Assembly: GCF_900107195.1 (NCBI RefSeq)
Contig: NZ_FNPB01000001.1
Coordinates: forward strand, 372,001-436,000
Direction of reading: 5' to 3'
Origin: Halobellus clavatus
GTDB lineage: Archaea; Halobacteriota; Halobacteria; Halobacteriales; Haloferacaceae
Length of the DNA: 64,000 bases
The position numbers were made by a program, and so were the translations under genes. A model generated the notes under the pieces. It did not search any database, was not told the origin of the DNA, and saw only the letters and a program-made list of their open reading frames with translations. Within the stretch, counting starts at the first letter, position 1, and each line of letters starts with the position of its first letter. Positions 15,332 through 36,326 of this stretch are shown here, one piece after another.

Positions 15332-15765
15332 ATCCGAGTTCACTCGCTCCTGCTACTTCAAACCCTATGTCCCGCTGTGGGCCGTGAATCGGCCGAAGTG
15401 TGGATAAAGAAGTCCTGAGACACCCGACTCTCCGAAGTCGAGAGCGGGAGCGTTCGCGGGGCGATCGATCAGCTTCGATCACTCCGGACCATCGACGCAC
15501 ACTGGGACGCGACACACACTGGGACGCAATACAGACCGGGACGCGGCACATACTGGGACGCGGCACATACTGGGACGCGGCACATACTGGGACGCGGCAC
15601 ATACTGGGACGCGACGCACACCGAAGCGGGACGGCCCGAGACGCGACACAGACCGGGACGCGGCACACACCGAGACGGGCGGTCCCCCACTCGCGTACAG
15701 CCGTCGGCCGGCCGATCCCGCCGCGGGGAGAAGGCTTTTCATCGGAACCGCCCAACTAGCGTGTG
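15332..15765. other. Divergent intergenic region of gapI and hsp20
   Basis: A 434-bp gene-free gap that carries the promoters of gapI (minus) and hsp20 (plus). Its middle is a 17-bp minisatellite (separate entry). Apparent reading frames through the array are 17-residue repeats caused by the 51-bp triple period, are open in several frames and on both strands, and are not genes. Confidence 0.7.
15504..15622. repeat. 17-bp tandem repeat (minisatellite)
   Basis: Seven contiguous 17-bp units related to GGGACGCGGCACATACT. Units 3 to 6 (15538-15605) are identical; units 1, 2 and 7 vary at a few positions, for example CACACACT or CAATACAGACC. Further degenerate units continue to about 15680 (GGGACGCGGCACACACC). 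The unit length is not a multiple of three. The array fills most of the spacer between divergent gapI and hsp20. Confidence 0.92.
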
Positions 15766-21692: not shown

Positions 21693-22619
21693 ATGAAAGA
21701 CGAACTGGACCACAGCATCGACCCGACCGACCGAGTAGGGATGAGCGACGACGACCCCTGGGCCATCTCGCTCGAGGATTCGACCGTTCAGGAGTCGCTC
21801 ACCGAGACCCGCCGAATCATCAATCGCCAACTCGACATCGCGGAGAACATCAACGACGAGTCGTTCAAGATGATTCGGTTGAATCTCGTCTTTCTCGGCG
21901 GGATTGCGACGGTCATCTTCTCCGCACGGGAGCTGTTCGTCAGCGCGATTCTGTTCGTCTCCATCGGGATGGGGTTCATTTCGGTCTCGCTACTCCTGTC
22001 GTCGTACACCTACGGCAGTATGGCGCTCTACGGCGGGTTCGGGGACTCCCCCGCGCTCGACTTCGAGAAGCTCTCGGGCGTCAATATGATGAGTAGTTAC
22101 GAGACGGTCCTCGGAGAGTACGATCAGATCCGCCGGGAACTCCCGTCCTCGGACGAGTTCCGCGCCATCCTCCTCTCGGATCACGAGAAGGGCGTCCTCC
22201 ACAACAACGTCGAGATCAAGTCGTGTTGGTCGATCCTCCGTCACGGCTCGGTCCTGCTCTACATCGGCATCATCGCCATCGCGATCGGCGTCGGGACCGA
22301 GTTCATTGACCCATCGAGAGCCTGGCGGTCCGTCCTGCGCGGTGTCGGGGGGCTCATCATCGTCATCGGGGTCACGTCGACGCTCAAGTCGATCTCCGTC
22401 GTCAGTGCACACATGAACCGCCTGCGGGACGAAGAGCGGTTCGACTACGACTACTACGGTCACGACTTCTTCCAGGACGCGCCGCTGTTCCTCGCGAAGT
22501 ACTACCTCGTCCTGTACAACTGGCTGTTCTCCAGGAGCGACGACGAGGACGGAGACGACGGAGACGAGGGCGACGACGAGGCGGACCCAGACGGGCGAGG
22601 AAACGGAGATCGAGCGTAA
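21693..22619 (+). CDS. Unknown membrane protein with acidic C-tail
   Basis: A 308-residue protein with hydrophobic segments at about 65-80, 85-110, 190-210 and 220-240 and a C-terminal tail of nearly continuous Asp/Glu (about 283-308). Residues 25-55 look helical (TETRRIINRQLDIAENIND). I recognise no family. The start is placed at MKDELDHS because GGAGGGG lies just upstream; MSDDDPW, 16 codons later, is the alternative. It is convergent with the methyltransferase gene of the putative borosin locus, so it is probably not part of it. Confidence 0.7.
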   Translation: MKDELDHSIDPTDRVGMSDDDPWAISLEDSTVQESLTETRRIINRQLDIAENINDESFKMIRLNLVFLGGIATVIFSARELFVSAILFVSIGMGFISVSLLLSSYTYGSMALYGGFGDSPALDFEKLSGVNMMSSYETVLGEYDQIRRELPSSDEFRAILLSDHEKGVLHNNVEIKSCWSILRHGSVLLYIGIIAIAIGVGTEFIDPSRAWRSVLRGVGGLIIVIGVTSTLKSISVVSAHMNRLRDEERFDYDYYGHDFFQDAPLFLAKYYLVLYNWLFSRSDDEDGDDGDEGDDEADPDGRGNGDRA

Positions 22620-22655: not shown

Positions 22656-23444
22656 TCACTCCGGACGCGCGATCAGACAGATACTCCGGGTGTCGAGATC
22701 GTACTCCGAGCCGCGCAGGTCCCCGTAGAGGTGCGCGATCTGCAGGCCGTTGCGTTCTAACACGGCGCTGATCTCGGTGACGTTGTAGAGGCGGAGGAAG
22801 TACTGGAAGTCCACCCGCTCGCCGTCGCGCCAGAGGAACCGGTCGGTGATCTGTCGGCCGGTTTCCGGCTCGAACGTCAGTTCGTCGGCGACGACGAGGT
22901 CCTCGTCCGCGTACACGCGACTCCCGGAGAGGTTCCGGACGACGAAGTCGCGGTCGACGATTTCCATCAGCACCCGTCCGTCGTCCTTCACGGCGCGAGC
23001 GATCTCCGAGAGCACCTGCTCGTTCTCCTCGTCGCTGAAGTAGCCGAAGCTGTTGAAGATGTTGTACACGGCGTCGAACCGGTCGGCTTCGTACGGTAGC
23101 CGTCGCATATCGCCCTGGACGTATGCGGGTCCTTCGGGAGTGGTCGCCTCCTCGCGGGCGACGTCCAGGAGGCCGCGGGACGCGTCCAGCCCGTGGACGT
23201 CGTAGCCCGCCTCGTCTAAGATGTTCGCGACGCGACCGTGTCCGCACGCGAGGTCGAGGATGCGGTCGTCCCCCGAGAGGTCGAGGAGTTCGGCGATATG
23301 CTCGGCGTCGGCTCTGGAGTTACTCAGCGTTCCCGCCGCGGAGGCGGTCAGTTCGTAGACGCCGTCTTCGTACAGCGGGAGGTAGTTGTCGGGGTCGAAC
23401 GTTCGCTCGAAATCGAACGCCGGCGTCTCGTCGTCAGCAGTCAT
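22656..23444 (-). CDS. Class I SAM-dependent methyltransferase
   Basis: A 262-residue Rossmann-fold methyltransferase. Motif I is ILDLACGHGRVANIL, followed by VHGLDAS (SAM ribose binding), YVQGDMRRLPY and FDAVYNIFNSFGYF. The C-terminal half is a beta-rich region, LWRDGERVDFQYFLRLYNV, ending in ICLIARPE. The substrate is unknown. It begins 29 bp after the stop of the borosin-type methylase on the same strand, so the two are likely co-transcribed and it is a candidate tailoring enzyme; a coincidental neighbour is also possible. Confidence 0.87.
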   Translation of the reverse strand: MTADDETPAFDFERTFDPDNYLPLYEDGVYELTASAAGTLSNSRADAEHIAELLDLSGDDRILDLACGHGRVANILDEAGYDVHGLDASRGLLDVAREEATTPEGPAYVQGDMRRLPYEADRFDAVYNIFNSFGYFSDEENEQVLSEIARAVKDDGRVLMEIVDRDFVVRNLSGSRVYADEDLVVADELTFEPETGRQITDRFLWRDGERVDFQYFLRLYNVTEISAVLERNGLQIAHLYGDLRGSEYDLDTRSICLIARPE

Positions 23445-23472: not shown

Positions 23473-24297
23473 TCAGTTCCCCTCGTCGGTGATCCGGTCT
23501 AAGTGGTCTTCGGCGGTGGCCGCCGCCAGCAGCGTCTCGTTCGCGGGCGGTTTCGCCCCGATCGGCGGAACGTACAGCGAGTCCAGCGTGGTGACGGTGT
23601 CGGCGACCGATTCGATCGCGCCCAGTTCGATGCGCCGGAGGTTCGGTTCGCCGAAGGGCTGCGTCGCCGAGCGGACGAACACGACCTCGTGGTCCGAGCC
23701 GTAGGAGTCTTGGAGATACGTTCGCAGCCGTTCGAACCGCTTCGGGTCGCTGTCCTTGGAGGTCTGTAGTCGCGTCTCGACGACGCCGACCTGATAGAGC
23801 AACAGCGGGACGTGTTCGTCGATCTCGTACTCGTGGATGAGGAGGTTCGTGGCCTCGTGGAGCTGGAGCCCGTCGAGCGGGTCGATGCCGAGATCGACAA
23901 AGAGCGTCCCCAGCGACGAGACGCCGGGGATGGTCTCGACGGTCATCTCGCGCTCGGCCGCTTTCTGCGTCAGCAGTGACCCGGCGCTCGAACCGACCGA
24001 GGGGTGGCCGTAGACCGCCAGCGCGACGGGAGCGTCGCTCGAGGCCGCCCTGTCGAGTACCGTGTCGGCGATCCGGTCGTAGATCTCGATTCGCTCTTCG
24101 CCCTCGCGGTACAGCGTTTCCACGGAGTGCACGTCGCCGTCGAGTTGCTCCCGAAAGTACTCGATGACCAGTTCGTTCGGGTTCTGGACGTACACGGCCG
24201 CAGCGCGTTCGAGCGCCGTCCACGCCTCCCGGGTGAGTTGTTGCGTCCCGACCATTCCGGTCCCGATCCGATACACGTCGGCGGCGTCTACGCCCAT
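23473..24297 (-). CDS. Borosin-type peptide backbone N-methyltransferase (split form)
   Basis: A 274-residue tetrapyrrole-methylase-fold SAM enzyme. N-terminal YRIGTGMVGTQQLT (about 9-22) is the first TP-methylase motif. Y63-x5-R69-x3-Y73 (LYREGEERIEIY) matches the spacing of the catalytic Y66, R72 and Y76 I recall for fungal OphMA. Residues 96-99 are YGHP, followed by IPGVSSLGTLFVDLGIDP and QLHEATNLL, the pattern that separates borosin methylases from cobalamin or diphthamide enzymes. No precursor is fused to it; a separate candidate precursor is encoded divergently 241 bp away. GAAGGAG precedes the start, and a GTG three codons upstream is an alternative. A TATA-like TAATAAAT lies at 24348-24355. 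Confidence 0.85.
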   Translation of the reverse strand: MGVDAADVYRIGTGMVGTQQLTREAWTALERAAAVYVQNPNELVIEYFREQLDGDVHSVETLYREGEERIEIYDRIADTVLDRAASSDAPVALAVYGHPSVGSSAGSLLTQKAAEREMTVETIPGVSSLGTLFVDLGIDPLDGLQLHEATNLLIHEYEIDEHVPLLLYQVGVVETRLQTSKDSDPKRFERLRTYLQDSYGSDHEVVFVRSATQPFGEPNLRRIELGAIESVADTVTTLDSLYVPPIGAKPPANETLLAAATAEDHLDRITDEGN

Positions 24298-24500
24298 CTC
24301 CCACACTCCTTCGGCCAAGGCATCGGTGATGCGTTCCGGAGGGCGAGTAATAAATCTCGCGTCGAAGCGGATGAGTACCGTTCCGGCACGGACCGGCCAC
24401 CGACCGACAGCGGGGGACGCGCCCACCGAAGCAAGCGGGGGTCCACGGACCAGCGACGGGGCGACCCCGCCGAGGAGTCGTGTACATTCGCCCGGTTCGC

Positions 24501-24538
24501 CGAAAACGCTTAAGTGGTGTGACCCGCCACCACTTGGT
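24501..24538 (+). promoter_or_regulatory. Promoter and operator-like inverted repeat of the borosin precursor
   Basis: CGAAAAC (BRE-like) runs into GCTTAAG (TATA-like, about 24508-24514), 28 bp from the ATG at 24539, so a leaderless transcript is expected. A perfect inverted repeat, AAGTGGTG (24512-24519) and CACCACTT (24528-24535), spans from the TATA element to just before the start codon, where a bound protein would block transcription. Confidence 0.6.
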
Positions 24539-24892
24539 ATGTCTGGACTGACAGAACTGATGCGCCAGGTCGTCCGCGACGACGAACTGCGTGTCGAACT
24601 GGAAGCTAATCCCGAATCCGTGTTCGACGAGTACGAACTGAACGACGCGGAGCGGGAGGCCGTTCGCCGCGGGGACGACGAGCGAATCAGTTCTCTCGTC
24701 GACGCTAACGCCGACGACAACATCGGTTACACCGGCGACTCCGACGACAACATCGGTTATACTGGCGACTCCGACGATAACATCGGCTACACCGGCGACT
24801 CAGACGACAACATCGGCTACACTGGCGACTCCGACGACAACATCGGCTACACCGGCGACTCAGACGACAACATCGGCTACACCGGCGACTAA
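24539..24892 (+). CDS. Putative borosin precursor peptide with six core repeats
   Basis: A 117-residue acidic peptide. Residues 1-55 form a helical leader (MSGLTELMRQVV, DELRVELEANPESVFDEYEL, AEREAVRRGD) that resembles the LigA-like borosin-binding domain of split-borosin precursors such as Shewanella SonA, as I recall it. Residues 59-117 are six tandem copies of DDNIGYTGDS, the last ending at GYTGD. All base differences among the 30-bp units are synonymous. No signal peptide, membrane segment or cysteine. I infer that the methylase at 23473-24297 alpha-N-methylates the repeated core. Alternative: a repetitive acidic protein unrelated to RiPPs, which the adjacent methylase makes unlikely. Confidence 0.82.
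   Translation: MSGLTELMRQVVRDDELRVELEANPESVFDEYELNDAEREAVRRGDDERISSLVDANADDNIGYTGDSDDNIGYTGDSDDNIGYTGDSDDNIGYTGDSDDNIGYTGDSDDNIGYTGD
24713..24889 (+). repeat. 30-bp in-frame coding repeat, six copies
   Basis: Units start at 24713, 24743, 24773, 24803, 24833 and 24863; the sixth is cut to 27 bp by the stop codon. Changes between units (GGT/GGC, TAC/TAT, ACC/ACT, GAC/GAT, TCC/TCA) are all at third positions, so the peptide DDNIGYTGDS is invariant. Confidence 0.97.
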
Positions 24893-25021: not shown

Positions 25022-26182
25022 GTGACAACGAAGGTCCCCGAACGGGAGTTTGCGCTACGGATCCAGCAGGTCAGGGACTACCTCGCTGAGCAAGAGGCCG
25101 ACGCCGCCGTCTGGTTCGACGCGACCAGTATCGAGTACGTAAGCGGCTTCCACCACGTCCAGACTGAACGCCCGGTCGTCCTCGCGCTGACCGACGAGCG
25201 GATCGAGATCACCGTTCCGCGACTGGAGGTCGAGCGAGTCGAGGAGAACACCCGAATCGACGCGGTGCACAGCTACTTTGATTACCCCGGCGGAGCGCCG
25301 ATCTCGACGGCCGCCGAGATGCTGGACGGCCTCGGCGTCGAGTCCGTGCTGGCGGATGCCGACGGCGCACCGGGCGTGATGGGCTACGAGGGTCCGCCGC
25401 TCAGCGACTTCGTCGACGTCGACGACCAGGACTGGGTCGGCGAGATGCGAGAGGCCAAGAGCGACGTCGAGATCGACCTGATTCGCGAGTCTGCGAAGTG
25501 GTCGAACCTCGCTCACCGGTATCTCGCCGACTACACGGAGCCGGGTGCACATCCGATTACGGTGAGCCAGCGGGCGTCGACCGACGCCTCCCGGGCGATG
25601 CTGGATGCGCTGGGCTCGGAGTACGCGGTGCGGATGCGCGGTGAGGGACCCGTCCACGCCGGGTACATCAGCGCCGAGGAGACGGCACTTCCGCACGGGC
25701 ACTCCCCCAACGCCCGCCTGGAACGGGGCGACGTCCTGATTACGGGTGCGACCGCGAACCTCGACGGCTACTACTCCGAGTTGGAACGGACGATGTTCGT
25801 GAGCGAGGTCAGCGACGAACAGGAGCACTACTTCGAGATTATGCTCGAATCCCAGGAGGTCGCCTTCGACGCGATGGGGCCGGGAGTCCCGCTCAGCCAC
25901 GTCGATCAGGCCGTCTGGGACTACTTCGAAGAGCAGGGCGTCACCGACCTCGCGCGCCACCACGTCGGCCACAACATCGGCCTCGGGGGGCACGAGCCGC
26001 CGTACATCGACCGGGGCGCTGATGGCGAGATGAAGCCCGGCCACGTGTACACGATCGAGCCCGGGATCTACACCGAGACCGAGGGCTATCGGCACTCCGA
26101 CACGGTCGCGATCACCGAAGACGGTCTCGACTTCCTCACCTTCTATCCGCGGGACTTAGAATCGAACGTCATCCGGGAGTAG
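25022..26182 (+). CDS. Creatinase-like M24 (pita-bread) family protein
   Basis: A 386-residue two-domain protein: a creatinase-N domain (about 1-135) and a pita-bread domain (about 145-380). It has HHVGHNIGLGGHE and IEPGIY, as in aminopeptidase P. The two metal-binding Asp residues of the DxG...SD motif are replaced (GATANLDGYYSELERT), and the last Glu motif reads GYRHSDT. Creatinase, which needs no metal, also shows an LERT version. It may therefore hydrolyse a C-N bond without metal. It follows the borosin precursor and could process it, but similar genes occur widely in haloarchaea. Confidence 0.82.
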   Translation: MTTKVPEREFALRIQQVRDYLAEQEADAAVWFDATSIEYVSGFHHVQTERPVVLALTDERIEITVPRLEVERVEENTRIDAVHSYFDYPGGAPISTAAEMLDGLGVESVLADADGAPGVMGYEGPPLSDFVDVDDQDWVGEMREAKSDVEIDLIRESAKWSNLAHRYLADYTEPGAHPITVSQRASTDASRAMLDALGSEYAVRMRGEGPVHAGYISAEETALPHGHSPNARLERGDVLITGATANLDGYYSELERTMFVSEVSDEQEHYFEIMLESQEVAFDAMGPGVPLSHVDQAVWDYFEEQGVTDLARHHVGHNIGLGGHEPPYIDRGADGEMKPGHVYTIEPGIYTETEGYRHSDTVAITEDGLDFLTFYPRDLESNVIRE

Positions 26183-36186: not shown

Positions 36187-36223
36187 AGCGAAGCCTGCGC
36201 CGGCGAGCGAATTAAATGGTGGC

Positions 36224-36326
36224 TCGACGGCCAGTCTCGCATCGTTGCGTCGGCAGCCAGTGTAGCATTGTTGCCTCGCGGCCCGTCTGGCATTGTTGCC
36301 TCGACGGCCCGTCTCACACTGTTGCG
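36224..36326. repeat. Degenerate 25-26-bp tandem repeat, four copies
   Basis: Units begin near 36224, 36250, 36276 and 36301 and each contains a TCG(A)CGGCCCGTCT-like block followed by GCATTGTTGCC or a close variant. The array sits between divergent aroE and the exchanger gene, immediately behind the aroE TATA box. Confidence 0.75.

Follow-up and report, generated by a model that had tools for sequence, protein, structure and literature searches.

Split borosins are defined by a separately encoded enzyme and precursor (PMC8429565), and the SonM/SonA pair of Shewanella oneidensis, classified as type IV, is such a system. The leader of SonA, known as the borosin-binding domain, folds into a bundle of five helices and has been co-crystallised with SonM (PMC8429565). 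The catalytic residues of SonM are Y58, R67, Y71, and Y93, and point mutants lowered kcat/KM with the peptide by ~14- to 98-fold, Y93F by just 1.6-fold (PMC8429565). In the fungal enzymes OphMA and dbOphMA the precursor is fused to the enzyme; the catalytic residues of OphMA are Y66, R72, Y76, and Y98, its variants R72A, R72K, Y76F, Y98F, and Y98A carried no methylation on purification, and the residues that it methylates include Gly, Ile, and Thr (PMC6108569). Some Asp residues are methylated by KchMA. OphP, which macrocyclises omphalotin, belongs to the prolyl oligopeptidases (PMC12235650), and RiPP precursors with several cores are exemplified by the microviridin precursor AMdnA, which has three (PMC5934393).

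The window analyzed here (64,000 nucleotides from Halobellus clavatus, contig NZ_FNPB01000001.1) contains two divergent genes whose start codons lie 241 bp apart, one for a borosin-type alpha-N-methyltransferase of 274 aa (23473–24297, minus strand) and one for a putative precursor peptide of 117 aa (24539–24892, plus strand). We read this pair as a split (type IV-like) borosin pathway with a probability of roughly 80%, in which leader binding, methylation, methylated sites, cleavage, product, and biological role are all inferred; the reading is supported at the level of sequence and predicted fold, while methylation itself has not been shown. With SonM/SonA the pair shares the separation of enzyme and precursor genes, a homologous enzyme of similar size with the same catalytic residues, and a homologous five-helix leader starting with MSGL (PMC8429565). 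It differs in its archaeal host, in the divergent orientation of the genes, in a 59-aa core built of six acidic decapeptide repeats where SonA has a single core of ~10 aa, and in the side-clamp loop of the enzyme, which is three residues shorter than in SonM, as it is in OphMA. We class the locus as a variant of the split borosins because its host is an archaeon and its core is acidic and perfectly repeated, a core that no other sampled genome has; the non-hydrophobic core is no bar to membership, since the definition rests on a separately encoded enzyme and precursor (PMC8429565). The type of system is known, and the locus departs from it in its host domain, its perfect acidic decapeptide repeat, and a linked membrane protein. 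Points against the borosin reading include the polar acidic core, as opposed to the mostly hydrophobic cores characterised so far, and the lack of biochemical data.

The sequence-only reading had described a tetrapyrrole-methylase-fold gene divergent from the peptide, and both the 274-aa frame (24297–23473, minus strand) and the motifs named for it, Y63-x5-R69-x3-Y73, YGHP (residues 96–99), DLGIDP, and QLHEATNLL, were recovered. Its further statement that these features define borosin enzymes stood only for the Y-R-Y plus Y-GHP set, as DLGIDP and QLHEATNLL are non-diagnostic (YabN has QIDP). Judged from the sequences, borosin enzymes are told from their relatives by two things combined, the Y-R-Y plus Y-GHP residues and an adjacent borosin-binding-domain peptide. 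Searched against the PDB with phmmer, the window methylase matched dbOphMA (1.5e−20), SonM (1.4e−18), and OphMA (8e−18). Y63, R69, Y73, and Y96 were all present when it was aligned with SonM and dbOphMA, and they were invariant across nine haloarchaeal homologues; the fold as well as the spacing of the Y-R-Y (Y66/R72/Y76 in OphMA) and Y-GHP motifs are the same as in OphMA/dbOphMA (PMC6108569), where, differently from the separate window precursor, the substrate is part of the enzyme. The AlphaFold model of the methylase (pLDDT 87.6) was used as a Foldseek query, and 50 of the 50 matches listed were borosin methylases (E 8e−22 to 2e−18).

Domain profiles leave some room for a small-molecule methylase akin to the tetrapyrrole, YabN, or diphthine enzymes, in which case the repeat protein would be unrelated: Pfam assigned the enzyme to the TP_methylase superfamily only, and the top curated NCBIfam profile was YabN, though at 92.9 bits, far under its cut-off of 525 (CbiL scored 30 vs. 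235 bits). This alternative is nevertheless barely tenable, as YabN of B. subtilis lacks both the arginine equivalent to R69 and Y96 (PGHP replaces YGHP in the alignment), the seven other tetrapyrrole-type methylases of the same genome lack the catalytic set, cobalamin-type paralogues being without all four residues, no MazG domain was found in the window methylase, and methylase and leader peptides are exactly paired across genomes. Clustering with cobalamin or diphthine enzymes had been set beforehand as an outcome that would refute the borosin reading, and it was not seen: a branch with support of 95/99 parted all seven own-genome paralogues from the window enzyme and the known borosins. 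YabN, which is not a borosin enzyme, was placed on a long branch in the same half of the tree as the window enzyme, and because of the long branches the position of the two relative to each other is unresolved, as is the order among the window enzyme, YabN, the enzymes of two congeners, and the known borosins; the window enzyme also had no firm place inside the haloarchaeal group. On the residues and the tree taken together, a tetrapyrrole, YabN, or diphthine identity was rejected.

The acidic 117-residue peptide with six repeat units was likewise found where it had been reported. Its predicted leader (residues 1–58; 24539–24712, plus strand) is followed by a core of six tandem DDNIGYTGD(S) units (24713–24889, plus strand; 59 aa, 31% acidic), with S after the first five. 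Tandem Repeats Finder gave 6.0 copies of a 30-bp unit at 24711–24890 (score 304), the top-scoring array of the window, and no other window ORF of at least 60 aa had at least three perfect tandem copies of a unit of 9–12 residues. Longer mechanical ORFs exist (416 aa on the minus and 242 aa on the plus strand), but they overlap the partner gene and homologues favour the shorter starts. The units are identical as protein, while their DNA differs at five columns, all of them synonymous third codon positions, where ~20% of random single-nucleotide changes would be expected to be synonymous. The purely synonymous differences suggest that the peptide is translated and that selection acts on its sequence, but recent copying among the units keeps this from being a formal test.

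That the peptide has a helical leader, as the sequence-only reading proposed, was supported at the level of homology and predicted fold. Residues 1–54 matched SonA with phmmer (E 2.8e−4); a leader profile built from SonA and other haloarchaeal and bacterial leaders, with the window's own leader left out, matched this ORF alone among the 493 ORFs of the window (E 3.4e−12); and the predicted structure had five helices (residues 3–13, 15–23, 25–29, 36–44, and 47–60; mean pLDDT of 79–93 per ten-residue block), resembling the borosin-binding domain, and a disordered repeat region. The best PDB fold matches of the leader were SonA chains (Foldseek probability 1.00, target-normalised TM 0.73, rmsd 2.1), with weak E-values (0.07 at best). 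Contact of this leader with the enzyme is inferred only indirectly, from its homology and predicted likeness to the SonA leader seen with SonM in crystals (PMC8429565). With the enzyme at ~1e−20 to borosin methylases and the leader profile unique at 3.4e−12, a chance match of the locus to borosins can be set aside. The short hydrophobic C-terminal core of SonA is missing: the window core is long (59 aa), repeated six times, polar, acidic, and only 20% hydrophobic, while most other haloarchaeal cores in the sample are hydrophobic and end, e.g., in STVVIIVVV, AAAVLVVVVNN, or TVYTITITYVSRKRD.

Upstream of the precursor start, a TATA-like TTAAG ~27 nt before the ATG is followed by a perfect 8-bp inverted repeat, AAGTGGTG-N8-CACCACTT (24512–24535), which is unique in the window and had no counterpart in 100 shuffles. 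From the sequence, the region 24510–24535 (plus strand) is the probable promoter of the precursor, a role that is inferred, and the inverted repeat is a possible operator. A scan for sigma-70 promoters and terminators returned nothing, as expected for an archaeon.

In a sample of 392 haloarchaeal genomes, the methylase was detected in nine, from 6 of 86 genera (E ≤ 1e−10), and the leader profile (E ≤ 1e−4) found leaders in the same nine genomes and in no others. The leader gene adjoins the methylase in all nine, the window included, so that enzyme and precursor are separate neighbours in eight other haloarchaeal genomes as well, one genome having two leaders. Some of these haloarchaeal genomes had themselves contributed to the profile, alongside bacterial leaders, while two of the nine had not. 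A separate scan of genome contigs with the haloarchaeal alignment returned bacteria only, with 14 relatives, most of which also have an adjacent leader. Their cores are of low complexity, Thr-rich or Pro-rich, and repetitive cores as such are therefore not unique to the window; the bacterial split borosins at loci L019, L020, L022, L023, and L027 resemble it in having a methylase that adjoins a leader peptide with a low-complexity core, but these cores are homopolymer-like, while that of the window is a perfect acidic decapeptide repeat. A pattern search for DDNIGYTGD(S) in the 392 genomes found no haloarchaeon besides the window with the repeat, and a search of plasmid sequences gave one weak match (E 0.08). 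The label of haloarchaeon, given earlier without knowledge of the source, is supported by an order-level relative (L009), whose methylase has an identical counterpart on a Haloarcula plasmid. A viral origin was considered and rejected, as neither the enzyme alignment nor the precursor found a relative when used to scan viral contigs; a DNA pattern scan of viral contigs matched once per contig in 18 contigs and never as a repeat array.

The singular core could also mean that a borosin-family enzyme acts on some other real substrate, with the repeat protein as a bystander or decoy that, e.g., binds metal. Such a reading would account for a repeat that differs from the mostly hydrophobic cores of the other haloarchaeal precursors and is in no other sampled genome. 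We regard it as unlikely, since the repeat protein has the only borosin-binding-like leader detectable in its genome (a whole-genome search with the leader found no second precursor of this kind) and adjoins the enzyme as leader genes do in every other genome.

The likeliest dedicated partner of the borosin pair is a neighbouring membrane protein (21693–22619, plus strand), whose gene is convergent with the methylase side. It is a multi-pass protein with four hydrophobic segments, probably serving the cluster in immunity, as a receptor, or in export, and its closest relatives, at 33% identity, are encoded next to the borosin methylase in the two congeners that have one. Within the genus (17 genomes) it was found in 3/3 genomes with the borosin enzyme and in 0/14 of the others, none of which reached 1e−6; the alignment used as query had itself been built from those three genomes. 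More distant relatives are scattered in the class, and no borosin gene was near any of the 27 loci checked. Besides the window copy, the family includes L012:6877–7662 and L016:6783–7565 and has a weak match to DUF4231, and an intermediate relative at L086 lies directly before a class I methyltransferase gene.

A class I SAM methyltransferase (22656–23444, minus strand; Methyltransf_25, 3e−20) begins 28 bp after the stop of the borosin enzyme and is probably co-transcribed with it, although its link to the pathway is positional and unproven; it was absent from the 16 other genomes of the genus at E ≤ 1e−20. The same protein matches the PADLOC profile mad2 (E 6e−19), probably through the shared methyltransferase fold only. 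Downstream of the precursor and on the same strand, an Xaa-Pro peptidase-like M24 metallopeptidase (25022–26182, plus strand; Peptidase_M24, 1.4e−40) is a candidate for precursor maturation on position alone, likewise unproven, and it was absent from 16 congeners at E ≤ 1e−60. Neither a dedicated exporter nor a prolyl oligopeptidase was found beside the window pair. The lack of a full biosynthetic cluster in the window and the patchy distribution of the methylase would suit a decayed or non-expressed remnant, an explanation that we consider very unlikely in view of the intact reading frames, the presence of all catalytic residues, the purely synonymous variation among the six repeat units, and the plausible promoter with its palindrome.

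Under the split borosin reading, the helical leader of the 117-aa peptide would dock on a dimeric tetrapyrrole-methylase-fold enzyme, and the acidic C-terminal repeats would be threaded through the active site, where Y63, R69, and Y73 would polarise and anchor successive backbone amides of the core and Y96 would help to place SAM. SAM would methylate the amides one after the other from the N- to the C-terminus, as assumed by homology. Methylation would most likely fall around the I-G-Y stretch of each unit (on I, G, or Y), and a peptidase could then free one or several copies of the N-methylated peptide. One possible elaboration, which we put forward tentatively, is an archaeal multi-core borosin: six identical acidic decapeptides, all served by a single leader, would be methylated on the backbone and yield copies of a polar N-methylated peptide (e.g., a signal or a metal-binding compound). 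The dedicated membrane protein would then act as receptor, in immunity, or in export, and the co-transcribed class I methyltransferase might add a second modification. Service of several tandem cores by one leader is also seen in AMdnA (PMC5934393), where enzyme class and chemistry are different.

If methylation, which has not been shown, takes place, backbone N-methylated ribosomal peptides would extend to the third domain of life. No paper linking borosins to archaea was found, but the largest borosin surveys lay outside our search and an earlier mention is possible; borosins are not named in the text of a survey that ran antiSMASH on 11,644 archaeal genomes (PMC12144867). The haloarchaeal loci are several and spread over different genera, and among them are plasmid-borne clusters that also encode a transporter and a macrocyclase-family peptidase; salt-adapted enzymes working on acidic repeats could be useful for exploring core-sequence tolerance and for making N-methylated peptides.

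Such a plasmid-borne cluster is present in Haloarcula sp. CBA1115 (NZ_CP010533.1), where, as at the Haloarcula loci L017 and L018, the genes for leader peptide, methylase, and prolyl oligopeptidase follow one another and ABC transporter genes lie next to them. These three loci share with the window a leader peptide and a ~38% identical enzyme, but differ from it in their single short hydrophobic core and in being same-strand operons that include a prolyl oligopeptidase, with the ABC transporter encoded on the opposite side. The clusters at L017, L018, and L068 (Haloarcula) look complete, with ABC ATPase, permease, leader peptide, methylase, and prolyl oligopeptidase; an HTH regulator is also encoded at L017 and L018. 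L068 is a plasmid-borne copy that shares an identical methylase, peptidase, and transporter with L017. At L015:8343–8908, two borosin-leader peptides with different hydrophobic cores precede one methylase, with ABC transporter genes upstream. Elsewhere in the window, ~10 imperfect copies of an intergenic 17-bp unit (CACACTGGGACGCGGCA) lie at 15498–15670, upstream of a gene at 15763, and a 26-bp repeat occurs in four imperfect copies at 36223–36325.
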